Positions 5,741-64,000 of a stretch of 64,000 nucleotides of DNA are shown piece by piece (position 1 is the stretch's first letter; every line of letters starts with the position of its first letter). The notes under the pieces were generated by a model. The model saw only the letters and a list, made by a program, of their open reading frames with translations. It ran no database searches and was not told the DNA's origin. The translations under genes and the position numbers were made by a program. The stretch comes from Dastarcus helophoroides (lineage: Eukaryota > Arthropoda > Insecta > Coleoptera > Bothrideridae): assembly GCA_028583605.1 (NCBI GenBank), contig CM053326.1, positions 5,393,208 to 5,457,207 on the forward strand, given 5' to 3'.

Positions 5741-7894
5741 ACGGCAAGAACGGAATTCGCTTGAGCGCAGGAATTCACTTAATATCTTCACCTAACATGT
5801 CTAAGAGCATGCGTACACTCCCAACGTTCTCATGGCGATATAATAGGAATTCCGGTTCATATTCCATTTACCCTCGTATTTAAAGACTGTAGTAACTCAT
5901 TATTTGCAGTATTGATATAATTAAAAGCAAAGTGTTTTCATAATCACGAAAAATTAGTACATTTAAAACATATTTTTTGAAATATCTCAACATTTGCTAT
6001 GCAAATATAAAATTTAGATAGTGTGACAGGTTTTTTAATATGCAATAACTGAAAATAGACAATATCAAAGACTAGATCATACGCAAATATAAAAGATATA
6101 AAACTAGAAATAACATTTTTAATTTACACATTTTTATTTTTGATATCACAATTTGAAAACTAAAAAAAAACTGTTATATTATAGTTTTAAGTTTTCACTT
6201 CTCTCAGCAGTCCTAATAATTGCCAAATTTTTTTTTTCAAAATCAATAGACATTTATTCTATTTTGATAGAAGCAAAAATCACAAAATAGACCAAAAAGT
6301 GCTCCGCACCGTACATACAGACCAAGGGATGGAACTGTTTGCAGGTATATAATGATGAATTTTGAGGTTAATGGCTTTTTTAAGATGTAGCAAATTGTAT
6401 CGTTCCTTAGAGAAAACGCTTCTCTATTTAAATCGCCATATTATAACTAATGTCCTGCAAAACTACCCGAACCGTTGTGAAAAAAAGTTAAGTCTTTACT
6501 GTTTGTCAATAATAGAGAAAACCACAAAGAATGTTTAAAAATATAAATGAGTTTTTATAATCTGCAAAGAACTACATGAGTTTATAAAATAATTTTGAAA
6601 AAAAGATAATTTTAAAATCACCGACATACTTTTATGTCGGTCTTATTGTACAGAATAGATTAATGTTCCTGCTTTTGTCAATTATACTAACAAAATCTAT
6701 ACCGCATAATTATTGCTGGTTTTATGGATGGGAAAAAGTGAAAAACCTTTTTTTATATGCTAAACATGATTCACTATACACGCCTGGGGCTGTATGAATT
6801 TGTAGTCTAGGTTGCATTCTACTTGCATACGACATTGTTGGCGACGGCCATAGTTTCTCTAGGGACCAATAGGTGGTAGTACTAAGAGTCACGCGCTCGA
6901 CGTTTGTGATTTCGTTAGTACTTACTTGTCGGAACATTTATTAGCATTCTAGTTGGATATACCAAACTGACGAGATCTAACAAGATCGAAACCGGTCTTT
7001 GGTTTCCCAACTTCGAATCTAATAAATGTTCAAACCTATTGGTCTGTGCATTAGAACTAAACATTCTTAACAATAGTACGCTAATAACAAGCATATTTCA
7101 ATAAAATATGAACTACTAGGGCTTTTTTTATCTATTTGCGGGTTGTTTTTATTATGCAAATACTCCTTTTATTCTGTTAAAGTTTTATTGACATGTCTGT
7201 ATCGTATATAACGTATATATCCGAAAGTTTCCTTTCTTTGCGGGAATTTAACTTTTTCATATGTAAGGAAGGCGAGAGCTTTTATCAAGTTGTCGACGTA
7301 CCCACTTCATTTTTCACGATTCACGTCATTTGTCAGTAAGTTGGGAAACACAGTAATGAGTTTGAAAACAACGGACGGGCGTGACATCTACGGCGTTCAG
7401 TCCAGTTCGGCGGTAGCACCGTTATGTCTTCTTTGGCCCATTTTTCTTTCCTACAATGCCAGGATTGGATTAAGTCTATTGGCCTGCGGCATTGAGTTTA
7501 CCAATAAAACGATCCCAACTTGGTGTGTTCTCGAGATTTTAGTTAATACAATGATACGGCAATGCGTCTGGAGACTTTTCTGGAAATTGTTTGTATTTTT
7601 TTTATTGCTTTGGTTTATTTTGGGGTTTGTTTTACAACTAGGATAAAAGTCGCTATTCGAAGATGTGCTATAAAACTACTGAAAAGTCTTTATAAAATTC
7701 GCTTTGCCTATGTTAATAGCGCGTTCGAAAGTATTTATCAAATTCAAAATTAATATGAATCAACTTGTTAATATTTGATTTGCTTTCTATATCTCTTTTT
7801 TGTGCATTTTTTTTAAATGAAATTTATTTTAGGGGCGTTGAGCAAATTTTTATGGCCGCCAATATACTAATATAGCGTTACCAACATGCTAATG
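5741..7894. other. No recognisable gene
   Basis: AT-rich DNA. A 118-codon frame at 7290-7646 (+) contains hydrophobic stretches but no recognisable family. No TIRs, tRNA or convincing splice-bounded exon was identified. Confidence 0.4.
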
Positions 7895-12955: not shown

Positions 12956-12967
12956 ATTATTACAAAG

Positions 12968-13552
12968 TCTGCTGAGATAATAAGCCTTGTATATACGAAT
13001 ATATACAAGTTTATTACGATGCAATTGAAATCTAATTTCATTAGAATCTAATGAAAATTAGACTGCAATTGCAAAGGTCATTTGTCAAAACTAGATGAAA
13101 GTAAAGTCACGCCGAGGACGTTTGTATCTATGGATGTTGCGATGCAACCCGTGATACAAGCTTTGCCTCATCTACGTGAACTTTGCAATTGCAGTCTAAT
13201 TTTCATTAGATTCTAATGAAATTAGATTTCAATTGCATCGTAATAAACTTCTATATATTCGTATATACAAGGCTTATTATCTCAGCAGAGAGTAATGCTT
13301 CAATTAGCATGTAGCGAAAATGTTTGCGTAATAAACAGTTAAAAGTCAGTTACAAGTCACCCAATGGAGGTTTGCGCTCTTGGATACTTATACGACTGAC
13401 TAACGGCTTTAAATTGGAAGTGTGTACAACCACCGTACCATGCTGATGAGGCCAAGGAAGGCCGAAACTAGTCTATGGTTGCGGTTGTACATATTTTCAA
13501 TTTTAAGCACGTTTAACTGTTTAATTACAGAACATTTAATTGGTCATTTGTC
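12968..13552 (+). mobile_element. Hammerhead-ribozyme retroelement, copy A
   Basis: The element is flanked by a perfect 12-bp duplication, ATTATTACAAAG, at 12956-12967 and 13553-13564 (a shared C makes 13). It begins with about 105 bp (12968-13072) that is the inverted complement of its own later segment 13182-13285. A segment starting AAACTAGATGAAAG follows, then CAATTAGCATGTAGCG, then a complete hammerhead ribozyme (13423-13491), and about 60 bp to the end GGTCATTTGTC. No ORF is present. Target duplication plus an inverted 5' end fits target-primed retrotransposition as known for Penelope-like elements and other retroposons. A protein donor in trans is inferred. Confidence 0.85.
13423..13491 (+). 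ncRNA. Type I hammerhead ribozyme (copy 1)
   Basis: All conserved core bases are present. Order: distal helix I strand TGTACAACC, internal loop ACCGT, proximal strand ACCATG, core CTGATGA, helix II GGCC/GGCC capped by AAGGAA, core GAAAC, loop TA, GTC cleavage triplet, proximal strand TATGGT, loop TGC, distal strand GGTTGTACA. Helix I pairs 6+9 bp across an asymmetric loop. Helix III is only two pairs (A-U, C-G) with a two-base loop. This short helix III is known for type I hammerheads of animal retroelements, including Penelope-like ones. Cleavage would follow the C of GTC. Function is inferred from structure. Confidence 0.93.
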
Positions 13553-13884
13553 ATTATTACAAAGGATAACCTGAAATTCCACAAAATATTAAGATAGCTA
13601 GATACAGTGATCATTTATAATGTCCCCCCGTCTTAACTTTCTTTTCGCACTAGAGAAAAATGTGAAATACAGAAGTTGTACAAAATGATGTAAGCTATTT
13701 GTAGAATAAATTTATGTAAATACAGGTATTGTTGTCGTAGATGAGCGTTCAAAGTTATATTTTTTAAATAAAGCACCCTATATATTGTACATTTTTAAAA
13801 ATTTTTGGTAAATTCTGAATATTTTTTCCATAGCATATCCTATACCTAAATTTAATAGTTTTCGACATATGCGCAATGTAATAC

Positions 13885-18871: not shown

Positions 18872-20054
18872 CTAATTAACAATTTATGAAGAAAATTCTG
18901 AAACAGGTCGATTTTTAATTCTAAAGTGACATTTTTGAGCATAATTTTATCCCCCCCCCTTTTCAATCCTCTTGGAGTGACAGCTACTCCTCTACATTTT
19001 TTAAATTGAATGAAGGTGCTTGCGAAAGCTCATTTAAAAAAGATGTTTAATTATACAGGGTGAATCACTAATGGTGTAAAGGTATGTAGCTCCTACAGAT
19101 TCTTCGCTAACAAAATTATGTCTGGTTTGAACGTACATTTGCACATTTTAAAATTATTTTTACTCTACAGGGTGAACACATACAGAGTGGTGGAGTAAAG
19201 TTGACTTTTTTAAATGGGACACCCTATATATTTGTACATATTTGAATTTCTCACAAAATGCTGATTAAAATGATATCAAACAATAGGAGTCTGTGGTTAA
19301 CCGTTTTTGAGATAATTAGAAAAATCATCAAAATTAAGCCTAAATTGCAAGATCGTTTAAATTTCGAGAAACACCTAAATGATTTCATTTCTGGTGTACA
19401 TTATTTCAGAACATTCTTTTCCTAAAAAAATGATGTAATATTATTTAAAAAAAGATTTGCAGTTATAGAAGGTAATTAGCAAACGCAAAATGACATTTTT
19501 CTCAAAAACTTAACTGGCATACCCTGTATATTTTTCGTTTCTGTTAATTAACAACTAAGCTTTGCTTTGATGCAAACATTTATGACTATTTTTTTAGTTC
19601 GGGAGATATTTAATTTCAAATTAAAAAAGTTCAAATTCTCTAGATTTATTTTAGTAAAATGCGTTTTTTCTCATATGTTTTGAACCTAAGCAAAAATAAT
19701 CTTTTTAAAATGCACTGTTCTAATTTTAATCATATAAGTTGCATATTTTCAAAAATATGAACTTTTAAATAGAAAACATATTGAGTTAGATGCTGCTTAT
19801 CATCTTTTCCTGAATTCTATGGATCTGTGCTCTATGTTCTTTGCTTAGTTTACATTATTTAAGAAAATAAGGATAAACCTAGTGCATAGTATAACATTCA
19901 TTCATTCTAGTCAATTTACCGTTTGTTTTAGTGAGAAAAATTAACAAAACAAACCCATTTCCCAAACGACAATCAAAAAATATTAATAATTATGACAAAT
20001 GACCAATGAAATGTTCTGTAATTAAATAGTTAAACGTGCTTAAAATTGAAAATA

Positions 20055-20123
20055 TGTACAACCGCAACCATAGACTAGTTTCGGCCTTCCTTGGCCTCAT
20101 CAGCATGGTACGGTGGTTGTATA
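20055..20123 (-). ncRNA. Type I hammerhead ribozyme (copy 2)
   Basis: Same 69-nt layout as copy 1, with all core bases intact: CTGATGA, GGCC/GGCC helix II with AAGGAA loop, GAAAC, TA, GTC. The only difference is one base in the distal helix I (TATACAACC instead of TGTACAACC), giving a single mismatch. Predicted cleavage lies between 20073 and 20072. Confidence 0.93.
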
Positions 20124-21109
20124 CAGATAAGGAAAAATTTTCATTGTCCATGTAAAACGCTAAGAATTGTCCCTTCCATAGTTTTCTACGGCCGCTGAAC
20201 GTATTCCCCTACTTTGACGCAGCATGCTCGTATCTTCCAGTTTAGATGTTAGAAAAAACTCGTCGAGAGTTTTAGAACAGTCTGAAATATTATTTAGCAC
20301 ACTCTGGCGGCCTATTTGAACTCCTTTTATTGTTATGTTTAAAGAGTTATTATGTTATATTCTTCATAAGAATTATTATTAATTTTGTTTAAGAAATCTC
20401 GTTTATTTATTTTGGTTATCAAAGAATATCAGTTTTATTTTACCTCAGACGTTGATTAAATCAACGGACTAAAATAACAAACAACATATGGTACGCAAAT
20501 GTTAATAAAATTGTTGCCTGCCAGTAGTAAACCCGTAACAAAACACCTTAGAAGCTGTGATGTACTACTGAAATCTCCACTAGCACTGATCGCTGCGCTC
20601 TGCATTGAATTGTTTACACCGGTGTAGGAGAATACAAGGCACCGCCCATCTATCCAACTATTAGCTCTCAATGTTAAATCTCTCATTAACATTCTCCCTA
20701 TGGACAGTGTTTGACTTTCCTGATGTGTATACTTCCAACTTAAAGCCGTTAGTCAGTCGTATTAGTATCCAAGAGAGTAAACTTCCATTGGGTGACTTGT
20801 AACTGACTTTTAACTGTTTATTACGCAAACATTTTCGCTACATGCTAATTGAAGCATTCTTCTCTGCTGAGGTAATAAGCCTTGTATATACGAATATATA
20901 CAAGTTTATTAAGATGCATTAGAATCTAATGAAAATCAGACTACAATTGCAAAGTTCACGTAGATGAGGCAAAGCTTGTATCACGGGTTGCCTCGCAACA
21001 TCCATAAATACAAACGTCCTCGGCGTGACTTTACTTTCATCTAGTTTTGACAAGTGACCAATGAAATGTTCTGTAATTAAATAGTTAAGCGTGCTTAAAA
21101 TTGAAAATA

Positions 21110-21178
21110 TGTACAACCGAAACCATAGACTAGTTTCGACCTTCCTTGGCCTCATCAGCATGGTACGGTGGTTGTATA
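21110..21178 (-). ncRNA. Type I hammerhead ribozyme (copy 3)
   Basis: Core intact. Helix II is GGCC/GGTC, which keeps four pairs through one G-U wobble. The 3-nt side of the helix I loop is TTC instead of TGC, and distal helix I carries the same A/C mismatch as copy 2. Predicted cleavage lies between 21128 and 21127. Confidence 0.92.
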
Positions 21179-22082
21179 CACTTCCAACTTAAAGCCGTTA
21201 GTCAGTCGTATAAGTATCCAATTAATAATTATATTTTATGCCGTATATTTTTAAAAAGAAAGTAACTTAAACCTAGACTATGGTCTAATCAAGCTAAAGT
21301 ACTCTAATAACAGTTGTGTATTTTATCTTAAATTGGTAAGATCGCAGTTGGAGCGAGATATGTCGAATTTGTGGTTTTGTAAACTTTTTTGGAAATTATG
21401 CTGTAAAAAATTTATTTATTAGTGTTTTTCATTATCTTTAAGAAATAAATTTTCAACAACTTCAATCAGAGGTGCATTTTAAACATTCAAATTTCGACAA
21501 TTTTTATTTTTCAAATTTAAAGTTAAATAACTCTCAAACGATAAGAGCTAGACCCACAAATTTTGACATTGAATCAACGCTTACTTGTTGCTTAACAAAA
21601 ATAAAAAATACTATTTAGGGTGTGCTATTTGAATTTTTTGAGAAAAATGTAATTTTGCGTTTGTTAACCACCCTGTATAATATCAAACACTATTTAAATA
21701 AAATTACAAAAATTTTTAAGAAAAGGATATATTGCAATTATTTGCACAAAGAATTTAATTGATTTAATAGTTTCTGGTCTTTCAAACGAGCTACAAAATT
21801 AGATTCAAATTTCTAAATATCTCAAATACTATTAATCGCAGATCGCTTATTGTTGATACCGTATTAATTAGCATTTTGTATAGCAATTAAATATGTAATA
21901 ATATATAGAGTATTCTATTTTAAAAAAGGAAACTCTAGTGCACTACCGGGTATATATTCACCCTGTATAGAATACAATAATTTTTGAATGTGCGCCTTCT
22001 GGTAACGTGCCTTTGGGCTAAAAAGATCTTTGTTACCAAAATATATGTAGGAGCTGCAGGGCTTTAACGTCTATTCACCCTA

Positions 22083-24319
22083 TACAGGGTGTTACAAAAG
22101 TCCGGGCCGCTACTTCAGGAGCATATTCTACACATTAAAATATGAAAAATGTTACAATACATTTTTTTCTTTAAATTGCCTCCTAACGGAGATATGACCA
22201 TTTAAAGATAGCGCCCCTAAAGTGGTTTTTTTACTACAAAAAGTTAACGGTTAGTAGCAAAGTCATGAAATTGGGCAAGCAGTAAAAGAATTGGATTAGG
22301 CATATTCTCATGTAACATATTTTTTAAATAAGCAGTAGCGTGGTGTGTAGGGGGTTGCCCGCGATTATTTTTTGCCGTAACTTTTTTGTATTGCAATATT
22401 TCGACACAAAAGTACCATAATCGTAAAAAACAACTTTTTTTATACAAAAAAGGTACTCCTTCTCAAAGTCGCTAAAAGTAACCGTTTCCGAGAAAATAGC
22501 GTTTAAACAAAATTGTTGCATTTATTAGAATTTGTTTTGCAAATTTCTAATTTATCCACTACTAACTGCATTGATATAAAAATAGTACAAAATTAAGGAA
22601 AAAAAATCAAAGCAAGTGTTCGAAATTACTGCCCCCTGCAGCAATACATTGCTCGGCTCGTCTTCTAAGGGAACTCCTTACTCTTTCGCAAATGCCTGGT
22701 GTATTGTGAATCTGGTTGAACCCATTTTCAATTCGTTCACGAAGATCATTGATATTGTCAACTGGTGTGGAGTAGACGATCTGCTTTAGATGTCCCCATA
22801 AGTAGAAATCGAGTGGGTTGAGGTCAGGAGACCTAGCTGGCCATGGTATCGGACCTCCTCGACCTATCCATCGTTGATGATAGTTGTTATTCAAAAATTC
22901 CCTAGCAACTGCACTAAAATGGGCAGGTGCCCCATCGTGCATTATCCACATTCGCTGTCTTGTTATGAGTGGAACATTTTCAAGTAACACGGGTAACTCT
23001 GTTTGCAAAAAATGTCTATATGATGCTCCTGTTAACCTATGAGGTAAAAAAAACGGTCCAATTATAGAGTCCCCTATTATTCCTCCCTAAATGTTAAGTG
23101 AAAAATGTTGCTGATGTCTCGACTGAATAACTGCATTGGGATTTTCAACTTGCCACTGATGCATGTTGTGAAAGTTAAGTATCCCGTTTCTGGTAAAACC
23201 CGCTTCGTCCGTAAATAATATGAGCGATGGAAAGTTCTCATTTTCAGCGATCTTATGCAATAGCCAGTTGCAAAATTCTATTCTTGGAGGATAATCAGCA
23301 GCAAGTAACCCTTGCACTCTTTGAAAATGATAGGGGTAAAATTGGTAAAATTTTAAAATTCGCCAGATAGTTACGTGATTTACTCCTTCGGCTAAAGCAA
23401 GTTGTCTAGTGCTGACACATGGATCTTCTTCAACTCGCTGAAGCACACGCTCCTCTAAATTAGCAACTTCTGCGTTTGGCCTTCCAACACGTTCGCCTTT
23501 GAAAACAAAATTTCCTGTTTCACATAAACGAGCATGAATTTTCTGGAACAATTTTTCTCCTGGTAGGTGTCTATTAGGAAAACGTTCAGCATAAAGCCGT
23601 CTTGCTTCAACACGATTACAATTTGCAAGCCCGTACATTAAATGCATATCGGCCATTTCTTGATTTGAATAGTCCATTTTATCAAAATAATGAAAAGTTA
23701 AAAAACTACTACACTTACTATTGACAACAAAAACTGCTAAAGTTTACAGCTTACGATCAAATTTTATCAGTGACACAACGTCAATCTCTGGCAGATATTG
23801 TCAAGTACAATTGTTTTCTTTACGATCAGTTTGCATGACCAACTTATTTTTTCTTATACAAATTAGTTAGAATTTCGAAGACGGGATAGGATTATTTAAA
23901 CGCCTTTTTCTCGGAAACGGTTACTTTTAGCGACTTTGAGAAGGAGTACCTTTTTTGTATAAAAAAAGTTGTTTTTTACGATTATGGTACTTTTGTGTCG
24001 AAATATTGCAATACAAAAAAGTTACGGCAAAAAATAATCGCGGGCAACCCCCTACACACCACGCTACTGCTTATTTAAAAAATATGTTACATGAGAATAT
24101 GCCTAATCCAATTCTTTAACTGCTGGCCCAATTTCATGACTTTGCTACTAACCGTTAACTTTTTGTAGTAAAAAAACCACTTTAGGGGCGCCATCTTTAA
24201 ATGGTCATATCTCCGTTAGGAGGCAATTTAAAGCAAAAAATGTATTTCAACATTTTTCATATTTTAATGTGTAGAATATGCTCCTGAAGTAGCGGCCCGG
24301 ACTTTTGTAACACCCTGTA
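22083..24319 (-). mobile_element. DUF4817/DD41D Tc1-mariner-like element, ~425-bp TIRs
   Basis: The ends read TACAGGGTGTTACAAAAGTC and are inverted over about 425 bp (22083-22507 and 23896-24319), with TA dinucleotides outside (22081-22082, 24320-24321). The arms are nearly identical, so the insertion is fairly young. The interior holds one transposase frame on the minus strand, broken by a single stop. The element is inserted at the TA next to the right end of the older element 19054-22082. Confidence 0.92.
22607..23677 (-). pseudogene. DDE transposase (DUF4817 N terminus), one in-frame nonsense codon
   Basis: The ATG at 23677 starts a frame of 356 codons if the TAG at 23087-23089 is passed; the flanking pieces 23677-23087 and 23086-22607 share one frame. 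At that codon the homologue at 48120-49190 has tryptophan (VNVWAGI), so this is a TGG to TAG change. N-terminal residues MHLMYGLANCNRVEARRLYA fit the DUF4817 HTH region. Catalytic residues are visible: D in ILFTDEAGF, D in MWIMHDGAPAHF, D in SPDLNPLDFYLW, with 41 residues between the last two, as in the DD41D class. Apart from the stop it looks functional. The protein would bind its TIRs and move the element by cut and paste. Confidence 0.92.
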
Positions 24320-31027: not shown

Positions 31028-33735
31028 GTTCTGTCTGTCTTAGCGACGTTGTATTGCAGGTATCGGTCAATTGACAAGATACTGCTCATCTACTGCGAGT
31101 TTAGATTTAGAAACGCCCGGACTATTGCACAAGTATTGAGTATTACTGCCTTCTGAAGTTGGATATATATGCTGCCAGGTAGCTCAAGTTGTCTTAGACT
31201 GGCTAAGAGCTGCTTAGGTATTACTCCTGTGGTTGATATTATTATTGGTATTATATGAACCTCATTTTGCTTCCACATAGATTTAATCTCATTCGCTAGC
31301 TGTTGATATTTGGTTGCCTTCTCTGTATAGGTTTTCAGGAGGTTATGTGTGTTTGGAACTGCAATATCTACTAGGTACGTGATAGCTGTGGCCTTAGCTG
31401 TAAGAATGATATCAGGTCGATTACATGGTATGGTCTTATCCGTTAGTATGGTGCGGTTCCAATACATTTTATAATTTTCATTTTCCAGGACACTTTCTGG
31501 ATTATATTTATAGTAGGGTGAGCTATCTTTTTTCAGCTTGTACATGTTGGCTATTTTCTGATGGATAACTTTTGCCACTTGATCATGTCTTGTAAGATAT
31601 TCAATAGCAGTTAGAGTTTTACAACTTCCGGTAATATGCTGGATGGTTTCAGGTGCCTCTCTACACTTCCTACATTTGTCATCATTTAGGGGTTCTTTAA
31701 GGATGTATTTTCTGTAGTTTTTGGTGTTTATTACTTGATCCTGAATAGCGATCATAAATCCTTCAGTTTCAGCAAATATATCCGCGCGAGTTAACCAACT
31801 GTTCGACGCATTCATGTCTACATGATTCTGGGCCAAATCGCTCGGGTGCCGTCCGTGAAGTGTTTTCTGGATCCATTGTTCAATGACCATTTTGCTGTGG
31901 CTATCATCTTCTAGCGTGTCAGAGTGTACAAGTGCATTATTTTTCAGGTCTAGGGGCGTATAGGCTTCGTCAGCCTTTATCACCGCTTGGTGTAGGCCAG
32001 ATGTTTTTTTATGACAAAAATAGTGCTGCAGAGTCCTTATTTGTTTGTCACACAGTTGAAGAATGTCTATAAGACCACGTCCTCCTTGTTGACGTGGTAT
32101 AATTATTCGATCACTTGAAGCTGCTCTAGGATGATGAATTCGGTGCTTCGTTAAGAGAGTGCGAGTTTTGGTCTGAATACCTTGCAGGTCTGTTTGTGTC
32201 CAGTTAACTGTCCCAAATGTATATGTTAATACTGGTACTGCATATGTGTAAATAGCTTTAAAGGTGTTTTTATCAGTTAATTTTGATTGGAGTATTGCTC
32301 TGACTCTTTTTATGTATTCCGCTATAGTTCTTTCTTTAACTTCTTTATGTTTAATTCGTTGTGATTGCAGTAGACCTAGATATTTGTAAGTGTCTTGTTC
32401 ACTCATTGGGTCTATGTAAGTTTCTTCCGCAGTTTTATATCTTTTAGGTTCACACTTTCCCTGATTTATACTCAGCGTCTTGCATTTGTCAAGACTAAAT
32501 GACATCTGGATATCACTAAAGAAAGTTTCTGTTAGATGGAGCAGCTGTTGTATTTGCCTGTCTGTGGATCCATATAGTTTGATATCGTCCATGTACATTA
32601 GATGTGTTATGAGGTGTTTTATAATGTTGCCATTTTTGATTGGAAATCCATAATCACTTCTATTCAGCATGGACGACAGTGGATTTAAAGCAAGACAAAA
32701 CCATAGTGGGCTTAAGCCGTCGCCTTGAAATATACCTCTACGGATCTTTATGGGGTTACACTTGATATTGGTGCTGTGAAAATTTAAGTGTGGGGTAGTC
32801 TGCCATGCTTCCATTAAATGTTGCAATGTTTCAATTATGCTGGGATCAATTTTATAGATGCGGAGGACTTAAATAAGCCAGCTGTGAGGCACTGAGTCGA
32901 AAGTTTTTCTATAATCAATAAAGGCAGTGTATTTATTGCGATGTTTCCGGATGGCCTGCTGGGATACCACGCTGTCAAGTATGAGTTGTTCCTTGCATCC
33001 GTGTGACCCTTTAATACATCCTTTCTGCTCTTCAGCTAATATGAAATTCTTTTCCAAATACTGGTAAATCTTTGCTGAAATACATGATGTGAACATTTTA
33101 TAAATACTGCTCAGACATGTGATCGGGCGGTACTTTGACGGGTCGTGGGTGTTTTTGTCTTTTGGTAGCAAGTAAGTGATGCCTACAGACAGGTACGGTG
33201 GTATCTGGTCTGAGTTTTGAAGTTATTGAAATGAAATGCAAGGAGTTCATGTGTTGCTGTGAAGCGTTTAATCCAAAAATTGTGAATTTTGTCTAAGCCA
33301 GGAGCTTTCCTATTATGTGTTGAATTTATTGCTTTACCGAGCTGTTCTACGGTGATCACACAGTCGTCCATGGGAGTCAAGTTGGCCACATATTTTTGTT
33401 CACATTTTATCCATGCAGCCTTCTCATTGTGTTTGTTCTGACTCGACCATATACTAGACCAATAGGTTTCTATGGTCTTCGCATCGGGCACTTTGTTATC
33501 CTCGATTTTTTGTTTGCTAAGATTACGATAGTATAACTTTTCATTGGTGTTAAATAGTTTGTTTTGATGTTTTCTTTGCCTGGCCTCCCTGTATCTCCTT
33601 AGTCTTTAGGCCTTAACTAACAGCCGCTGTTTTAGTGTGTCGAGCATTTCCAAGGCTTCGGTGTTATCGGGATCGTATCGTGTGTGTTTCGTTGATGAGC
33701 TTTTTACTTTATTTATGTGTTTTAGTAACTTCTTC
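31028..33735 (-). mobile_element. Dong/R4-like non-LTR retrotransposon between TAA repeats
   Basis: The element is bounded by TAA repeats on both sides (30884-31027 and 33736-33757). The body encodes RT, a CCHC finger and a restriction-like endonuclease in that order, the single-ORF plan of the R4/Dong clade. Known Dong elements insert into TAA repeats. The 5' part upstream of the RT (about 33500-33700) still reads RLRRYREARQRKHQNKLF-like sequence, typical of the pre-RT region, so only the extreme 5' end is missing. Confidence 0.85.
31090..33491 (-). pseudogene. Dong/R4-like RT-endonuclease ORF, one stop and one frameshift
   Basis: Three pieces line up. 33491-33183 holds the pre-RT region (NSTHNRKAPGLDKIHNFW). 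33171-32869 holds PSKYRPITCLSSIYKM and FIDYRKTFDSVPHSWLI with the first RT aspartate. 32826-31090 is 578 codons with GDGLSPLWF, YMDD at residues 78-81, a C-x2-C-x8-H-x4-C finger at residues 385-402, and an endonuclease with RPD (470-472), D487 and K504. Pieces two and three share one frame and are separated only by a TAA at 32869-32871, probably an old lysine codon. A frameshift near 33225-33240 separates the first. YMDD rather than YADD is usual in this clade. Confidence 0.88.
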
Positions 33736-38829: not shown

Positions 38830-39290
38830 TTAAATCCAAATCCTAAAAACTCTATCCAAGGTGAGGTTAAAATTTTATGTAAAGGTTGGTTTGAGAAAGA
38901 AATTCAAATTTTGATGTGAAACTAGAAAATCATAATTTGGATAAAAAAACTCGAATTTTTGTGGCAAAAACAGAGTTTTGTGAAAAAAAGTTGCGATTGA
39001 CTAAAATTGAAAATTGAACCTAACACATAAAAAAAAATCCAATTTTTTTTTTAAATAAAATTTTTACTTTTTTTGTCTTAAATTGGAGTTAACATTTTTA
39101 AATTTTGGCTGTAAACATTGACCTGAAGGTCTAATTTTTAAAGGTTAAACTCAAATTGTGAAAGGAAAATCGAAATTTCAGGATAAATATTTTCAAGGTT
39201 AAGTGAAAATTAAGGTACAGATGTTAAAATGTGAATAATATTTTTAAACAAATTTCGAAGGATTGTCGGAATTTCAACTTTTTTTTTTGA
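38830..39290. repeat. A/T-rich degenerate array, block 2
   Basis: Same type of sequence as 1241-2153: short words such as AAATCCAAAT, GAAATTCAAATTTTG and AAAATTGAAAATTG repeated loosely. It continues at 39560-39700 after the ribozyme-repeat fragment inserted between. Confidence 0.55.
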
Positions 39291-39321
39291 ATATTATAGT
39301 TTAAGCTTATGTTTTTTAATC

Positions 39322-39550
39322 AAACAGTTAACCGTGCTTAAAATTGAAAACTTTGTTGAACTAGATGAAAGTAAAGTCACGCCGAGGATATTTGTATCAA
39401 TATATGTTGCGATGCAACCCGTGATACAAGCTTTTCCCCATTTAGGTAAACTTTGCAATTGGAATCTGGTTTTCATTAGATTCTAATGAAATTAGATTTT
39501 AATTGCGTCGTCATAAACTTGTACATATTCGTATATACAAGGCTTATTAT
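39322..39550. mobile_element. Hammerhead-family retroelement fragment, copy C (no ribozyme)
   Basis: It begins with about 30 bp in inverted orientation (complement of TTTTCAATTTTAAGCACG) joined to the direct segment AACTAGATGAAAGTAAAG through GGCTTATTAT, exactly as in copies A and B. The ribozyme itself is not included. A weak duplication TTTAATC lies at 39315-39321 and 39550-39556. The inverted 5' junction resembles that of copy A. Confidence 0.75.
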
Positions 39551-40205
39551 TTAATCTTATCTAAAATTTTTTGTTGCATTCTTAAAACTTCGACTTTAAA
39601 AATTTAACTTTGCCTGCATTTAAAATACTTTCTTAATATAATGTAAAATTTTCGTTATTACGTTTAAAATTTGAAGAAAAAAATCGAAATTTTGGGGCAC
39701 GCACTATATTATACATCGTGCCCAAGATAACAAGGGCCACTATAGGCATCTCGGAAACGAAAGAAGATACGAATTAGTTTAAATGTGGATAAAGTTGCGC
39801 AATTAACAACTAATAAACTCGTAGAAACAATTTGCAGGGTTTTTAATTAAATAAAAAGACCTTATGGATTGTTAAACTTATTTTTTTCTTGCAGTTAATA
39901 TTCATGATAGAGCAAATCTGATTAAACGTTATTTTTGTAACCTTAAATAAGTTTAAATATTACGTCACCGATTATTCTATTCGACGTTTCATTTTTAAAC
40001 AACTCTTAAACAATATCTTGACCATTTTTTTCGAGGTTTTGTTATTCTAAAATTTACCGTGTATCATATATTATCTTGTAAATGCGTTTTTAAACTTATT
40101 TTAGCATTATGGAAAAATAATAGTAACAATAATATAAAATAACAATAAATAAAATAGAATAGTACGAAGCTGTATTGTTGACAATGTTTTCAAACCATTA
40201 ATGAA

Positions 40206-41690
40206 TATGATAACGAAGACTTCCACGGCCAAAGTCAGTACAGGATATACTTCTTTCGGGATTGGACCGTGTCAAATAAGTAGATGTGCCCCACATCCAC
40301 TTATTTTTCTTTCAATGGCAGCTTCTATAAACAAGTCTCCGGCACCCCAATGGGTTCCCCCTTATCCACAGCCGTAGCAAATATTTTCATGGAATCTTTT
40401 GAAAACACTGCGTTGGAAACTGCGGATTTTGAACCCAAGGTTTGGTTTCGTTATGTAGATGACATGTTTATTGTACGGCCAAATGGCAAGGATTCACTAA
40501 ATTTATTTTTGGAACGCCTAAACAGTTTACGTTCTTCCATTAGCTTCACTATGGAAATCGAAAGCAACGGTTCTCTTCCTTTTCTTGACGTACTGGTCAC
40601 CCGGTTACCAAACGGTTGCTTGCGTTCCTCATTCCGTCTGTCGAATACCCACCCATACTAATCGTTATTTGCATGCAGAGTCCCATCATCACCCTTCCTA
40701 AACACATTGTCATAAATTCACTGATTTCACGAGCTGTAGCAACTTTACAACCCATAAATCTTTTAAGCGAGTTGAACAAAATTCGTTTTAACCTCCGCAA
40801 CAATGGTTACAAATCGCACGACACTGAAGCTGTCATTAAACTACATCTTCACCCTACTCCTCGTCCTTTATAAAATTCAATAATTTCTTCTAAAGCCTTT
40901 CTTCCTCATGTTTACGAAGTAACAGATTAAATCGGAAAATTATTGAGAAAACACAACATTATACCCATTTTTTTTATCATCCTCAAAAATTTAACAGCTC
41001 CTTCCATCTCCCAAAGATAAAATGTCATCCTTTTGTTCTAATGGTGTGTGCAGGGTTCCTTGTTCTTGTGGTTCAGTGTAGATCGGAGAAACGGGGCGAT
41101 CATTTAAGCCGCGAATATCCGAGCACCAAAGATGTCTTAGGTCTGGTTTATTTTCGCAGTCAGCCATTGCGGAACATCAACATGAGACTGTTCATAAGAT
41201 TTTTTCTGATAATATTTTAATTATATCCAATATTTCCAATTACAATAATAGGAAGATATTTCCCAAAAACTTCAACAAAGACGACGGTTACATGCTTTCC
41301 TCCATCTGGAAACCAACCATTGGAAATCTTGGGCAGTGATCCCGCAGACGAATGGTATATAAAGCTTCCCTTTCCCTCTTTTCTCTTAGAAGAGTTTTCA
41401 CCACTGGTATGGTGGACATATTGAATTACCGTGCTTTTCTGTCTAAACTTTCTTATCCTTTGTACCAATTTTCAATTTAGAAGAGTTTCGCCTCTGGTAT
41501 GGTGGACATACTGAGTTACAGAGCTCTGATGTTTTGAAATTGGCCTTTTCATTTTTTCATTCTTATATTTCTCTTTTTATTGTTTCTTTTCTTTGTTCCT
41601 GAAGCCCCCTACGATGGTAGGGAAACGGTCGAACACTTTTAGTAGTCCTTGGACACGATCCAATCCCGGAAGAAGTATATCCTGTACATT
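40206..41690 (+). mobile_element. Penelope-like element, degenerate
   Basis: The left end (40206-40276) carries ACTTCCACGGCC and GGATTGGACCGTGTC. The right end (about 41600-41690) carries the inverted form GGACACGATCCAATCCCGGA. The same terminal sequence starts again at 63868. Between them are an RT core and a GIY-YIG region, the combination that defines Penelope-like elements. The inverted arrangement of terminal sequence is common for this class. The RT N terminus is missing, so the copy is 5'-truncated inside. Confidence 0.85.
40284..41230 (+). pseudogene. Penelope-like RT with GIY-YIG endonuclease, frameshifted
   Basis: The frame 40284-40661 gives FSFNGSFYKQVSGTPMGSPL, ANIFMESFE, VWFRYVDDMFIV (YVDD at residues 57-60) and SLPFLDVLVTRLPNG, which is the Penelope-type RT palm. 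A shift follows. The next frame (40616-40873) has VINSLISRAVATLQPIN and NLRNNGYKSHD, the thumb and linker. At 41049-41230 a third piece has VPCSCGSV, stop, IGETGRSFKPRISEH, the GIY-YIG catalytic region with a TAG at the expected tyrosine codon. In active elements this RT-endonuclease performs target-primed insertion. This copy cannot. Confidence 0.87.
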
Positions 41691-41691
41691 A

Positions 41692-43539
41692 ATGAATAAT
41701 TTCCAAATTTTACAAATAGGTCAAGGATGTCATATAAATTCATATCTGCCCTAAATAATAAAGTTATTAAAATTTTAAAACTATTGGCAAATAAATATAA
41801 GAAAATAGTAAACTTTACAGAAAAATTTAACTTAATTTGTATCTCTTGTCATTTACGATCCCACACTAGCTCTCCATGTCTTAGGCATGGTGTATAGGCA
41901 GTCGATGTTCTAAGTGAATTGTTATTCCGACCTTTCTAACTGTATCAGAATTTGTGTTATTGTGTAGGAGGTACTGATGAGTGTACTGTATGTGATGAGG
42001 AGAGTTATGTGCGGCTACAAGCAGGTAAAACTATCGCAAGTTGATTTCTGAGTGTACTTTAAAAAGCTTACATATTGTAAACAGTGCTCCCTCAGCAACT
42101 AGCAGAACTTGCGGCAAGTTGTTGCAATAATTTCTTGCACGTCTAAATAATTATGGAGAGTGCTCTGCTGGAAATTGTGTGCAAATAAGTTGAATAAATC
42201 GTACATTGCAGGTAGAAATACGCTACAATGTTTAAAATTAAGGCTAAGTTGCGTATTTTATTACTGCAAAATATACGAAAAAAAATCTGAAAAAAAGGTA
42301 ATAATTTTGAGAAAACTAAAAATAAATATTTTCATCTTTTGTGTTTTTATTGTAAACTATGCAAACATTTTTAATAGATACGTTACTAGAGCATTTCTTC
42401 ATAAAGAATTTAAAAATACTTCTTTTATTTTTACTGAACATTTTCACTACAAAAAGCTTCTTATGGTTCATTTCCTGGATTTTTAAAAGAAATTAAGTAT
42501 CAGCAAAACTTATTATCCAAGAGGAGTCAATTTTATTGAATGTGAACATAGAAAAAAACCAATCGCGAAGACTACATAGAAAATACATAAAAAGTTAATT
42601 GCGCAAGACGTTCGGAGAATAAAGCATCTCCAAAAATGGAAAACATATTTCACAGGAAAATGTTGGCGGTTTATTATTCATTGTCAAATTTTAGATGTGA
42701 CAAATTTCTGAACTATACGACATGCCTAAAGGGAAACTTCGTGATAAATTATGTTCAGCATAATTAATTGTTATAAACTACCCCGAATTTAGCATAATGC
42801 AAGATATCGAATAAAAACGACGTCGACGAAAAAGAAGTACGACGGAACGATGATTTCCAATTACGCCGTTCTCTTTTTAGAATGCTAAAAGATCGTATTT
42901 TATATTCATTATGTAGCCGGTAAACGAGAATATGAGATTTTGCGGTAGTAAAGTAAAAACAGGCAGTGATTCAAACTTGTGTATAATGGTCTAGATCATT
43001 AGTGGCGCCCCGCTATGTGCACTCCCTGATTGAATGATAGATGACCTCGCTCCAACCATTCTTGGGCCCCCATTCTTCCCGATATCATTTGTCATACAAA
43101 CGATATTTAAGGGTTTGTTAAGTTGAGAATAAAGTTGCAAGTTGCTTTTAGAGGTTCACCGGCAGCCTGTTCCATAAATAATTGCTGTTTACAATTTCAG
43201 AAGATACCGAGATCAAAGCTTTCAATGAAGAGTATAACAAATTTTCCCTACCACCGCCCATTATAATAAAAGCTAAAAAGATGATTGTCCGATTTGATAA
43301 AGAAATCTAATCATATACAGAAGTAAACATGGAACAAGTTTTATATCGACCAATTATTTTAAATAGATTAAAATAGTTGGTACATCCAAAAGGGCACATC
43401 CCTTTTTTTTGGTCAGGTTAACGTTAAATTCAAAATTTTTGCTCTAAACTTCAAACTTTCAGAAAAAAAAGCAGAAAGTTTATTTTCGAGCTCAACATAA
43501 AAATCTACTTTTATCTCCAAAACTATTCCTAACATAAAC
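41692..43539. other. Intron sequence, no further feature recognised
   Basis: Part of the 28988-44090 intron. AT-rich, with only short frames (for example 42160-42486) that lack a recognised domain. Confidence 0.5.
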
Positions 43540-47019: not shown

Positions 47020-47123
47020 NNNNNNNNNNNNNNNNNNNNNNNNNNNNNNNNNNNNNNNNNNNNNNNNNNNNNNNNNNNNNNNNNNNNNNNNNNNNNNNNN
47101 NNNNNNNNNNNNNNNNNNNNNNN
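47020..47123. other. Assembly gap (104 N)
   Basis: Unresolved bases. Frames spanning it are meaningless. Confidence 1.
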
Positions 47124-47626: not shown

Positions 47627-49760
47627 TACAGGGTGTTTCATAATTGCATGCTGAACCGGCAGGGGGATATTCCTTGGGCAATTTTAAGACAAAATTTTCA
47701 TATTAACATAGGTCCGGAAACGCTTTATTTTCGATATACAGGGCAGTAAAAATTGAAGAAAAAATCGGTTTTTCTTCAATATTTCTGAGACTGGTTTAGA
47801 TATTTTTTTGATATTCAGTACACGATATCTGGGTATAAAAGCAAGTATTTTGACAAAAAACATTTGTTCTGATTTCACCAGTGGCGTTCCCACAAACAGG
47901 TCGATACACATTTTTGAAAAAAAAGAATGTGACGCCAATATTATTTTTCAAAATAAGAATTATTTTCCTAGTCTTTGTTGTGTTTCTATCAAAAATGAGC
48001 TCTTGATTTTTTGTCCTACGACGGCCGGTTTCCGAATTAAAAAATAAAAATCATTTACTTGCTATGCCGCTATGGTAGATTAATTTATTAATGAAATCTT
48101 AACAATGAAATTAATTAAATCATATCAGGTGTTGAAAATGTCCACCACCTGCAAGTATGCACGCCTCAACTCTTCTTCTCATAGATTCGCGTACTCGTTG
48201 AAAAATTCCTGGCGTATTTTTCATAGTGTTGCAGGAATATGTTATGCGATTTCTCAGTTCTTCTTCAGTTTGGATTGGGGTGCTATAAACTAAGGTTTTA
48301 AGATAGCCCCATAAAAAATATTTTAGACTGTTCAGGTCAGGGGATCTAGGCGGCCATAATTCTGTTCCTGCTCTGCCTATCCAGCGATTATTGTAATTTT
48401 GATCCAAATATGCACGTGCCAAAACACTAAAATGCGCAGGGGCACCATCGTGCATAAACCACATTCGATTTCGGATTAAAACGGGGACATCTTCTAACAG
48501 CACTGGTAAATCATTTTCAAGAAAGTGACGATAATTTTCTCCATTTAATCTTCTTGGCAGAAAAAAGGGTCCAATTAAATAGTCGTCAACAATTCCTGCC
48601 CACACATTTACCGAGAATTGTTCTTGGTGATTGACTTCGACCATGGCATGCGGGTGCTCTTCAGCCCAAAAGTGATTGTTGTGAAAGTTTCTAATTGCAT
48701 TTAGGGAAAAACTGGCTTCATCAGTAAATAATACTTCTCTGTCAAATAGTGGATTTTCAACAATTTTTTGAATAAACCATTGGCAGAAATTTATACGAAA
48801 TGGTAAATCCCGAGGCAGTAAGGCCTGAACCCGTTGAATATGGTAAGGGTATAACAAAAAATCGTGAAGTATCCTCCAGACTAAAATATGGGAGATATTT
48901 AAATTACTAGCAATTTTCCTTGTGCTTATTTCGGGATTTTGCTCAAATGAATTAAGAACAGCTATTTCAGTTTCTTCTGTTCTTGCGGTTCTTTGTGCCC
49001 CTTTTAAGTGATGATCGGGTTTAAAACATCCCTTCTCGCGTAGCCTTCTATGAACGCTTGAAAAAGTTCTTGCATCTGGCACAATTCTTTGCGGAAAACG
49101 CTCTGCATACAGTCGCCTGGCTTCAAATGCATTTCCATCCGCAAGACCGTACATGTAATGAATATCGGCAAACTCAGCATTCTCAAACATATTTTCTTAT
49201 ACTTATCAATCACTCACATTCAGATAAAGTATTGAAGTGAAAAATTTGACACTTGGTTGTAAACACAAAACTAAATCTCAGTGGCCTACTAAATTTTCAT
49301 TAATAAATTAATCTACCGCATAGCAAGTAAATGATTTTTATTTTTTAATTCGGAAACCGTCCGTCATAGGACAAAAAGTCAAGAGCTCATTTTTGATAGA
49401 AACACAACAAAGACTAGGAAAATAATTCTTATTTTGAAAAATAGCATTGGCGTCACATTTTTTTTTTTTCAAAAATGTGTATCGACCTGTTTGTGGGAAC
49501 GCCACTGGTGGAATCAGAACAAATGTTTTTTTGTCAAAATACTTGCTTTTATACGCAGATAACGTGTACTGAATATCAAAAAAATATCTAAACCAGTCTC
49601 AGAAATATTGAAGAAAAACCGACTTTTTCTTCAATTTTTACCGCCCTGTATATCGAAAATGAAGCGTTTCCGGACCTATGTTAATATGAAAATTTTATCT
49701 TAAAATTGCCCAAGGAATATCCCCCTGCCGGTTCAGCATGCAATTATGAAACACCCTGTA
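47627..49760 (-). mobile_element. DUF4817/DD41D Tc1-mariner-like element, ~470-bp TIRs
   Basis: Starts TACAGGGTGTTTCATAATTG and ends with the complement, with TA on both sides (47625-47626 and 49761-49762). The inverted arms extend about 470 bp each (47627-48095 and about 49290-49760) and are nearly identical, with scattered substitutions. The single frame inside, 48120-49190, is open throughout. Architecture matches the element at 22083-24319, but the arms differ in sequence, so this is a separate family. Confidence 0.93.
48120..49190 (-). CDS. DDE transposase, DUF4817 N terminus, 356 aa
   Basis: Uninterrupted ATG-to-stop frame filling the element between its TIRs. Residues 1-60 (FADIHYMYGLADGNAFEARR, LYAERFP) are the DUF4817 HTH region; a second HTH-like segment (ISTRKIASNLNISHILVWRI) spans about 88-108. 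The DDE domain has D157 in LFTDEASF and D248 in MWFMHDGAPAHF. The third acidic position, 42 residues after D248, is K290 in SPDLNSLKYFLWG, where the relative at 22607-23677 has D in SPDLNPLDFYLW. The codon at 48321-48323 reads AAA on the minus strand. The protein is the same length as its relative and could still bind DNA but is predicted catalytically dead. Confidence 0.92.
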   Translation of the reverse strand: MFENAEFADIHYMYGLADGNAFEARRLYAERFPQRIVPDARTFSSVHRRLREKGCFKPDHHLKGAQRTARTEETEIAVLNSFEQNPEISTRKIASNLNISHILVWRILHDFLLYPYHIQRVQALLPRDLPFRINFCQWFIQKIVENPLFDREVLFTDEASFSLNAIRNFHNNHFWAEEHPHAMVEVNHQEQFSVNVWAGIVDDYLIGPFFLPRRLNGENYRHFLENDLPVLLEDVPVLIRNRMWFMHDGAPAHFSVLARAYLDQNYNNRWIGRAGTELWPPRSPDLNSLKYFLWGYLKTLVYSTPIQTEEELRNRITYSCNTMKNTPGIFQRVRESMRRRVEACILAGGGHFQHLI

Positions 49761-53764: not shown

Positions 53765-54245
53765 TATACAGATCAGAAAAGTTGTACATTGTCCACAGGG
53801 AGATATTTAATGGGAGATTTATATTAAGAGTGTAACAATGTGTTCCCTTCACCGACTGAACCCAACTGAACGGAGAGCGGAAAGATATTTATAAGAGATA
53901 TTTCGCGGCGACAATCAATGCCAGAAAATTTTATTACTAAATTAAGACCCTTACATTAGATGTGTTCATACTGAAAGTAGCACACAACAATGTTATTACT
54001 ATTTGTATAATCTACATGTTCTTTTAATTCATTGATTAAATCATCGTTTTGTACCTTTTGAGGCTAAAAAATACCTGGTATTTATTGGTTAACAAATTAA
54101 ATAAAGAAACGAGCATGCTCCGGCAAAATAGGGGAGTACGTTCAGACAACCTGCTGACGAAACGAGAATTTAGAAAGGAATTTTTCTTAGCATTCTACTT
54201 GGAGAGTTAACCACTTTCCTTATCTGGATATTGCTACATGCTGTA
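53765..54245 (+). repeat. Relative of the 560-bp unique segment of the two-ribozyme element
   Basis: Shares with the minus strand of about 20740-20130 the words TATACA-ATCAG-AAAG, TGTCCACAGGGAGA/TGTCCATAGGGAGA, ATTGATTAAATCA/TTGATTTAATCAA, CGAGCATGCT, AGGGGAGTACGTTCAG/AGGGGAATACGTTCAG, TCTTAGC and TTTCCTTATCTG. It is strongly diverged. Where the ribozyme would start (about 54235) only ACATGCTGTATGA-like sequence remains. Confidence 0.6.
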
Positions 54246-54599: not shown

Positions 54600-55960
54600 A
54601 TCAGCAATGTTAGCGGGAGGAAAATAGAATCATTTCCGACAGACAATACGGTTTTAGACAACAACGTTTCACTGGCGATCTACTGGCATATGTTACTCAT
54701 ATCTGTAACTCAGCTTTGCAAACACATGGTGAGGCTAGAATTGTGGCATTGGATATCTCAAAGGCTTTCGACAAAGTCTGGCATCGATCTCTTCTTGCCA
54801 AATTAACATCTTATGGTCTTCATTTAATATCCAATTTTCTCGCTGACAGGTCTCTTCAGGTCGTCGTCGATGGCATCTCATCCGAGACATTTTCGATTAA
54901 CGCAGGGGTGCCTCAGGGGTCTGTTCTGTCTCCTACTTTATTTCTGTTACACATAAACGTTCTCCTAGCTTCAACTTTCAATCCTATATACAGTTATGCA
55001 CATGATAATAACCTTGTGTCATCTTTTTTCTCCGACAAACCATTAGATATCTATCGCTGCTTCAGATCGACTAGAGGAACAGCAGATACAGACGACTAAT
55101 CAAGATCTCAAGATCATTATGGAATGAAGTAAGAACAATTTGGTCGACTTCAACGCTTCAAAAACTCAGACCGAGGTTTTCTCTAAGAAAACATAATAAT
55201 GCAACAAACATACTAATGAACGGTAAAATCATTCCGATGGGATCAAATCTATCTATCCTAGGAGTGAATGCGAGCACTAACTTCTCTTGGGACGATCGTG
55301 TGCGCGCCCTTGGCAAATTCTCCTCTCGGAAGCTGGGCTTTCTTTTTAGAGCTAAAAAGTACTTCACATTTCATCAGCTATTAACACTCTTCAAAGCTCA
55401 AGTTAGGCCAACACTAGAATACTGTTCTCATGTTTGGAGTTCAGCCCCAAAACACATTTTAGCTCTCTTGGATTCAATTTAAAGAAGAGCGATTCGCCTA
55501 ATTGATGACGAAAGTCTGACCGATTTTCTCGAAACACTAGAGCATAGGCGTATGGTTGGTGACTTGTCTCTTTTCTACAAGTACTATCACGGAAGATGAT
55601 CGCTGGAACTAATAGGATTGATTCCCCAAAGGGCAAGGTTCTTGAGGCATACTAGACAGTCGGAGACAGCAACTTCCTGTGGGGTCCAGCGTGACACAGT
55701 GAGGACTTCTGTCTACGGAGATTCTTTTTTTTATAGAACTTCCAAGTTATGGAACTTGTTACCGAAAGAAATTTTTCCCAAAAATTACAACCTATCCTCG
55801 TTTAAGAATGCGGTTCATCGCCATTTATCTATCCTTGTGTCCGCATCTTACTTGCAGTGCTTTGAAAGCATAATGGGTTTTCCCTTTGCAGGATTAAACT
55901 TTAAAAAAGGAAGTTTAGACAGTAACATGTAATGGCTTTTTTTTCAATAGGGAAAACGCT
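54600..55960 (+). pseudogene. CR1/Jockey-like RT fragment, 5'-truncated and broken
   Basis: Begins near ISDRQYGFR, then 54716-55099 encodes ALDISKAFDKVWHRSLLAKL (first RT motif) and VPQGSVLSPTLFLLHIN. The catalytic box reads YAHD in place of YADD. A shift leads to 55216-55482 (ILGVNASTNFSWDDRVRALG, VRPTLEYCSHVWSSAPKH). TAA at 55480-55482 and a later TGA interrupt RRAIRLIDD...HRRMVGDLSLFYKYYHGR, and 55618-55932 encodes RTSVYGDSFFYRTSKLWNLL. This thumb and C-terminal region is widespread in insect CR1/Jockey-like LINEs. No endonuclease region remains. Confidence 0.85.
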
Positions 55961-60879: not shown

Positions 60880-61050
60880 ACTAGGAGAATTAATTTAACT
60901 TTCAGTATCTCTCTGAAGATGATAGCTTTGCTTTCGAAACGCGTTAGAGTAACCTCTGTTGTGCTTGTTCATCTTTTTTTGTTTTAGGGGACAAGATTTG
61001 TATTTCAATTTTTGAAGATAATTAGGGACCAGTCTGATTTACAAAAAAAA
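60880..61050 (+). mobile_element. Retroposon with hammerhead-like core (type 2, copy 2)
   Basis: Homologous to 29463-29646 through ACCAGTCTGATTTAC and ending in an A-run. At 60905-60960 it has CTCT, CTGAAGA, a partly paired helix II (GATAGC/GCTTTC), GAAAC, loop GC, GTT and AGAG. Since the seventh core position may vary, CTGAAGA is compatible with a hammerhead, GTT is an acceptable cleavage triplet, and helix III again has two pairs. Proximal helix I is four pairs (CTCT/AGAG). It is weaker than the three main ribozymes. Confidence 0.6.
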
Positions 61051-63532: not shown

Positions 63533-63867
63533 ATAAATTAAAATTAAATTGGCTACCGCATCCAAAATGGTCAATTACGAATCTCTTAGCAAGAAATAAA
63601 CAAAGTGTTCGTAAATACAAAAAAGCTTTAAGCAAAATATAATGGAGTTAAAAATATGCAAATTCTAATTGAATTTGCTACAGGATATCGTGAACAGTTT
63701 GCTTATGAATTAGAGAGTACCAAAATTGTCTATAAATGTACAAGAAGGTTCAAACAAAATTTAATTATATTCTTAGAAATATATAAATCCAAATTAAAAA
63801 TGAATAAATTTAAAATGAGTACACTAGAAGCGAATCCCTGTATTTGCAAAATTTTCGAAAACTGAGT
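63533..63867. other. No recognisable gene
   Basis: Short frames between the foldback element and the Penelope-like end; no domain recognised. Confidence 0.4.
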
Positions 63868-64000
63868 GATAACGAAGGCTTCCACGGCCAGAGTCAGTAT
63901 AGGATATACTACTTTCGGGATTGGACCGTGTCAAGGAACTGCTAAAAGTTTTCGACGTTTCGCCCACTATCGTAAGAAGTTTCTTCAGGAACAAAGAAAA
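63868..64000 (+). mobile_element. Start of a second Penelope-like copy, cut by window end
   Basis: Repeats the left terminal sequence of 40206-40276 (CTTCCACGGCC, GGATTGGACCGTGTC) and continues through AACTGCTAAAAGTTTTCGAC. On the minus strand about 63944-63990 has CTGAAGA, a weak helix II around TTACGATAGT, and GAAACGTC, a hammerhead-like core with no loop in helix III. The RT region would lie beyond the window. Confidence 0.75.

Follow-up and report, generated by a model that had tools for sequence, protein, structure and literature searches.

The hammerhead at 13423–13491 of the 64,000-nt stretch of DNA analysed here (the window) probably serves to process the transcripts of a short, non-autonomous non-LTR retroelement that would belong with the metazoan retrozymes and be mobilized in trans, most likely by a Penelope-like element. 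The preliminary description of this DNA treated the surrounding repeat as one that could not be named; it can be, as its anatomy is that of a metazoan non-LTR retrozyme. According to the available parts of three papers, such retrozymes carry type I hammerheads in tandem repeats of 150–450 bp, with low G+C content and, where present, target-site duplications of more than 4 bp (PMC7229834, PMC4918200, PMC7761336). Their RNAs are more than 70% paired, and 15-bp duplications are reported in Nematostella in the part of PMC4918200 at hand. The present repeat is like them in having a type I hammerhead, tandem copies (with a 449-bp period in the element we call B+C), G+C content below 50% with no coding gene found, target-site duplications longer than 4 bp, and a highly self-paired RNA. 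It also differs from them, as far as those parts go. The period of 449–466 bp is at or above the reported top (repeats of 150–450 bp, RNAs of about 170–400 nt), and there is one dimer and one single lap instead of an array. The features are listed below by position in the window.

6943–7024, plus strand: hammerhead E, with helix III ACCGGT; its sequence differs from that of the A family and its architecture is the same; predicted cleavage after 6997
12957–12967: left target-site duplication of element A, TTATTACAAAG, 11 bp, or 13 bp counting a CA that also ends the element
12968–13553, plus strand: element A, an inverted 5' arm and then one lap of a 466-bp unit (13088–13553) plus 12 bp, with one hammerhead
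12968–13076, minus strand: inverted arm of A, matching the unit of A in reverse complement at 108/109 bases
13423–13491, plus strand: type I hammerhead A, 69 nt, predicted cleavage after C17 at 13473
13492–13553, plus strand: tail of A, which follows the hammerhead and runs to the 3' end GGTCATTTGTCA
13554–13564: right target-site duplication of element A, TTATTACAAAG, 11 bp
19982–19992: target-site duplication on the 3' side of element B+C, TAATTATTAAT on the minus strand, 11 bp
19993–21220, minus strand: element B+C, a 5'-truncated dimer with two hammerheads, 622 bp without its insert, or 1.39 laps of a 449-bp unit
20055–20123, minus strand: hammerhead C, second of the dimer, predicted cleavage after 20073 (minus), which leaves 80 nt to the 3' end
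20126–20731, minus strand: insert X, MITE-like, about 606 bp, with ends CACATCAG...CTTATCTG and bounds ambiguous by a few bases
21110–21178, minus strand: hammerhead B, first of the dimer, predicted cleavage after 21128 (minus)
21221–21231: target-site duplication on the 5' side of element B+C, TAATTATTAAT on the minus strand, 11 bp
39309–39550, minus strand: fragment D, an inverted arm (39359–39550) and the start of a tail (39309–39350)
40153–41336, plus strand: broken reverse-transcriptase gene with short pieces repeated at 63867–64000, located about 600 bp from fragment D

Ribozyme anatomy and search statistics

Hammerhead A has the core CTGATGA...GAAA...GTC, and the features that define type I were all found in it: a CTGANGA...GAAA...NUH core, three helices, and an open end on helix I. 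Helix I consists of 6 bp, a 5/3 internal loop, and 9 bp, and helix II has 4 bp. By reading, the outer part has 18 continuous pairs if three G-U pairs are allowed, and the 5/3 internal loop and a 6-nt loop II are both there. The core is intact in all three copies (A, B, and C); the outer helix I of hammerhead C is severed by insert X. The initial claim that a dispersed repeat here carries a complete type I hammerhead is borne out, and the match goes beyond chance. Helix III had been described as 2 bp with a 2-nt loop. It is indeed short, but two base pairs closed by two bases make a strained hairpin, and the helix is better described as a single A-U pair capped by a palindromic tetraloop. The palindrome is ACTAGT in A, B, and C, and ACCGGT, also a palindrome, in hammerhead E.

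Short forms of helix III were correctly said to be known from Penelope-like elements and some retrozymes. HHR_Amex1 of axolotl and newt, as presented in the available part of PMC7229834, has a helix III made of a single base pair and a palindromic tetraloop, and cleaves poorly alone and better as a dimer. The present ribozyme is likened to it by helix III only, and the hosts differ: the same part of that paper ascribes this type of helix III to amphibians and not to most invertebrates, whereas here it lies in arthropod DNA. Because helix III is the palindrome ACTAGT, cleavage as a dimer is probably favored, and by analogy with HHR_Amex1 the A-family ribozyme probably cleaves best in that form. 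Penelope-like hammerheads, in contrast to this repeat, are called minimal, without helix III or loop–loop contacts, in the available parts of PMC7761336 and PMC6155905.

Folding was compared with 200 shuffles for each hammerhead, which gave z scores of -5.55 for A, -3.25 for B, -2.43 for C, and -6.80 for E, where the stretch was longer. The minimum-energy structures of A and C keep helix II, with some core-side bases paired, and that of B is not a hammerhead.

A full descriptor (the core, with at least 5 bp in helix I, 4 bp in helix II, and 2 bp in helix III) found four sites in the 64,000-nt window and none in 200 dinucleotide shuffles. The core pattern alone matched six times, against 0.11 expected; two of these six, at 60913 and 63957, are absent from the full-descriptor list. 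The Rfam check that had been proposed gave a mixed answer, with zero matches in the window at the gathering score and matches to RF02275 (Hammerhead_HH9) below it. At a lax threshold, this model was the top covariance-model match for all four hammerheads, all of them under its gathering score of 52 bits. The three copies scored 25.5, 25.3, and 23.8 bits (E-values 0.052, 0.058, and 0.17), and hammerhead E, covered from 6949 to 7020 (plus), scored 42.9 bits (E-value 1.3e-7), the best Rfam match in the window and still below the gathering score. The helix III of RF02275 has 3 bp and a 5-nt loop, unlike the one found here. A covariance model built from the four hammerheads recovers those four by construction, and found no further site in the window up to an E-value of 5.

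Beyond the window, a pattern of 24 fixed bases, derived from the window's own hammerheads, matched no viral contig and a single site among the 257 billion bases of the GTDB genome contigs. The latter was rejected as a hammerhead and taken as a chance match because it falls on the antisense strand of a 662-aa bacterial reading frame and no Rfam model matches it. Exact scans of the viral contigs for the A/B+C family gave no match, and the repeat was not found in the literature listings and parts of papers searched.

Architecture and divergence of the insertions

By BLAST and junction reading, element B+C runs from a 42-bp unit end through hammerhead B, a 449-bp period, and hammerhead C to a tail ending in GGTCATTTGTCA. 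Hammerheads B and C had been described as two further copies on the minus strand. Both keep the core, but they lie in a single insertion: the same evidence rules out two separate ones, so that the three copies represent two insertions. In element A, the boundary between the inverted arm and the direct part is ambiguous by one G; at either end of B+C, BLAST against the window found no inverted arm. In fragment D, read on the minus strand, the outer end of the inverted arm lies 9 nt from A's arm end in the unit; the hammerhead is missing, and the 3' end at GGTCATTTGTCA is not clearly shared. Insert X is located at the TATA of GTATACA in helix I of hammerhead C; it has short imperfect inverted ends and a relative at about 53765–54230.

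Elements A and B+C share the 3' end GGTCATTTGTCA, which in both lies 80 nt past the predicted cleavage site (13473 to 13553; 20073 to 19993), and their 5' ends differ. Each is flanked by 11-bp target-site duplications, which are unclear for fragment D; the probability of an 11-base match at fixed ends by chance is about 7e-7. An internal 3' end past the hammerhead and an A+T-rich target were found at two of three insertion loci, the third being the unclear fragment D.

The unit of element A has 37% G+C, and as a 466-nt circle its RNA is predicted to be 73% paired (z of -9.4 against 60 shuffles, for unit A only). Its longest frame from an ATG has 80 codons. This frame starts at an ATG within the hammerhead and is open in A, where it is read round the circle, and in B. 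For B's 80-codon product, no relative was found among proteins of 0.55–1.75 times its length sharing five-residue words, a range that full-length Penelope proteins exceed. No enzyme gene was found in the hammerhead-to-hammerhead unit. The reverse transcriptase with GIY-YIG endonuclease that would mark a Penelope element in its own right is absent from unit A, whose ATG frames reach 80 codons at most.

Between A and B, differences number 3/69 in the hammerhead, 4/62 in the tail, and 14/316 aligned positions in the body, with 18 gap columns. Because these rates are alike, the hammerhead evolves no slower than its flanks, and the structural constraint that the preliminary description had seen in the pattern of changes is not supported for the A-family hammerhead. 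The changes had also been described as wobble-compatible or confined to the loop or the distal helix. Of the three variable sites, one does lie in the internal loop and one makes a G-U pair, but the third breaks a distal pair, leaving A-C, and no pair within the A/B/C family has changed on both sides. Hammerhead C differs from A at 1/69 positions (2/62 in the tail) and from B at 2/69 (2/62). Over the 131 bp of hammerhead and tail, three states that set B and C apart from A are common to both, as expected of one template, although the two also differ from each other at four sites. Since the arm of A is 108/109 identical to its unit while the A and B bodies differ at 14/316 positions, arm and body come from the same or a near-identical RNA.

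A second hammerhead locus and a recurrent box

Hammerhead E, which is absent from the preliminary description, is a separate locus outside the A/B+C family. The descriptor matched it at 6961–7003 (plus), and it sits within a hairpin of about 30 pairs. BLAST of 6400–7400 against the window found no second copy of the locus. Direct repeats around it reach 10 bases at most, and none adjoins it tellingly; at this search size, 8-mer repeats are expected by chance, by our own estimate. When the A family is compared with E, every position of the inner helix I and of helices II and III is paired, and both partners have changed in 3 of the 12 pairs; the outer helix is 79% paired, and E is poorly aligned there. 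The paired double changes therefore argue that both are hammerheads, and not that the family is under selection.

Sequence similarity between the two loci is limited. The 298 bp upstream of E gave no significant alignment with the A body (33 of 300 shuffles were as good), nor were the tails of A and E significantly similar (82/300). For narrow stretches picked afterwards, 1 of 300 shuffles was as good for E against A's first box, 72 for E against the sequence preceding A's hammerhead, and 1 for A's two boxes against each other.

The box, AGTCACGC-4 nt-GACGTTTGT, matches the window three times without mismatch and six times with up to two mismatches, against 0.08 expected; the significance of this excess is uncertain, since the sequences had already been seen when the pattern was drawn up. 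In the form AGTCACGC-4 nt-GACGTTTG it is common to both hammerhead loci (6887–6906, 13105–13124, and 21011–21030 on the minus strand), with weaker copies at 13355, 20778 (minus), and 39375. It may be a promoter or an enzyme-binding box. A scan of the viral contigs for it returned two contigs, neither with an Rfam match up to an E-value of 0.1.

Retrozyme cycle, enzyme, and rival readings

The cycle that we propose would begin with transcription of tandem units. The hammerheads would cut the transcript into units of about 449–466 nt, probably pairwise through the 6-nt palindrome in helix III, and a host RNA ligase would probably close the units into circles. Acting in trans, a reverse transcriptase most likely from a Penelope-like element would then begin copying at GGTCATTTGTCA, which lies within the unit and 80 nt beyond the cleavage scar; it would be primed from an A+T-rich cut and would pass through the scar for one lap or more. 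Second-strand priming at the cut would produce the inverted 5' arm. An internal start, a variable 5' end, and two-strand priming in A and D together form the signature of target-primed reverse transcription. The copies extend across the hammerhead scar, so their template was uninterrupted there, either as a religated circle or as uncut RNA. A circular RNA is the likely template on this analysis. However, for PAc, a Penelope-like element of Anolis, uncut RNA was used in vitro, cleavage was not needed, and the hammerhead was dispensable (PMC11167929, in the part available), so circles need not be the template.

Penelope-like elements are put forward as strong candidate movers of retrozymes by Cervera and de la Pena (2020) in the available part of PMC7229834. 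From the available part of PMC11167929, the PAc enzyme starts 111–118 nt into the ORF and the hammerhead cuts at +26, which by our own subtraction places the start 85–92 nt past the cut; targets are A+T-rich, and both DNA strands are extended from an equal start site. Our elements are like PAc in a start 80 nt past the cut, a parallel in distance that is one number from one element, in their A+T-rich targets, and in signs of both-strand priming. They are unlike it in that the unit carries neither reverse transcriptase nor endonuclease, and in that A's arm starts elsewhere in the unit than A's 3' end, whereas PAc has a single start on both strands. No AC-rich stem-loop was noticed in the element by eye. 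Since the footprint resembles that of PAc as studied in vitro, a Penelope-type enzyme probably moved A and B+C.

A broken, putatively Penelope-like gene lies about 600 bp from fragment D. Libraries name its fragment at 40284–40658 only as RVT_1; we take it to be Penelope-like, and the stretch at 41082–41336 is presumably GIY-YIG-like. For the endonuclease part, Pfam gave only a sub-cutoff match to AbiJ_NTD5. Among the 120 of 154 relatives listed for 40284–40658, the named ones include the beetles Aquatica leii (64% identity over 81%), Pyrocoelia, and Trypoxylus, as well as ticks, a moth, a mantis shrimp, tapeworms, and one bacterial record. The fragment is separate from the retrozyme unit.

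The window also holds other mobile-element remains. Further reverse-transcriptase pieces (RVT_1) lie at 31090–32868 (minus) and 54614–55099 (plus). An uninterrupted 358-aa transposase frame at 48120–49196 (minus) matches DUF4817 and, below cutoff, DDE_3. Its top-scoring entry in the protein collection shows 96% identity, and inspection by eye places a related copy, in two reading frames, at 22607–23743. A run of N at 47020–47123 is an assembly gap.

The hammerheads could instead belong to pseudo-LTRs of a full-length, autonomous Penelope-like element whose gene-bearing copies lie outside the window, with the tandem pseudo-LTRs as debris and uncut tandem RNA as the template. This would also account for the hammerhead, the tandem arrangement, the inverted arms, and the internal 3' end, and the 80-codon frame opens at the hammerhead ATG in A and B much as the PAc ORF begins in its hammerhead (PMC11167929, in the part available). 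We nevertheless consider it unlikely. The unit has no enzyme gene between its hammerheads, B's 80-codon product has no relative within the range searched (which full-length Penelope proteins exceed) and differs from A's at seven residues, and BLAST of 39000–42000 against the window found no repeat match inside the reverse-transcriptase fragment. A satellite repeat or MITE relic carrying a hammerhead by accident, with the inverted arms as terminal inverted repeats, is very improbable. It would suit the strong inverted repeat at 12968–13289, and hammerhead satellites are known. For example, pDo500 of Dolichopoda cave crickets is, like ours, a repeat from an insect that carries a hammerhead, with stem I possibly extended; unlike ours, its hammerhead is more conserved than the rest of the satellite (PMC2837043, in the part available). 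Against this, B+C has no inverted arm at either end, the elements have a common 3' end but unlike 5' ends, 11-bp duplications are present, and the window holds no more than two hammerheads in tandem. MITE ends are disfavored as an explanation of the arms. A chance resemblance without activity is hardly credible even though the Rfam gathering score was not reached, given that none of 200 shuffles matched the full descriptor, that the core is intact in three copies, and that a fourth hammerhead of the same architecture occurs in the window.

On the retrozyme reading, we suggest tentatively that the footprints, which come from only two insertions with clear ends, may be direct genomic evidence of a Penelope-type enzyme moving animal retrozymes. 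Such an enzyme would use a fixed start about 80 nt past the scar and a scar-continuous RNA, copy at least one lap, and prime on both strands, and the box AGTCACGC-4 nt-GACGTTTGT may form part of recognition. The A/B+C family is probably a retrozyme-class element, and its insertion ends are unusually readable. The available part of PMC7229834 leaves open what enzyme mobilizes animal retrozymes, and elements with readable ends make the question testable from genome sequence. If 3' ends were to fall 80–90 nt past the cut across many copies, the mechanism of Penelope-like elements described in vitro would be at work on a non-autonomous passenger; failing that, these elements would be one more case of a widespread class.
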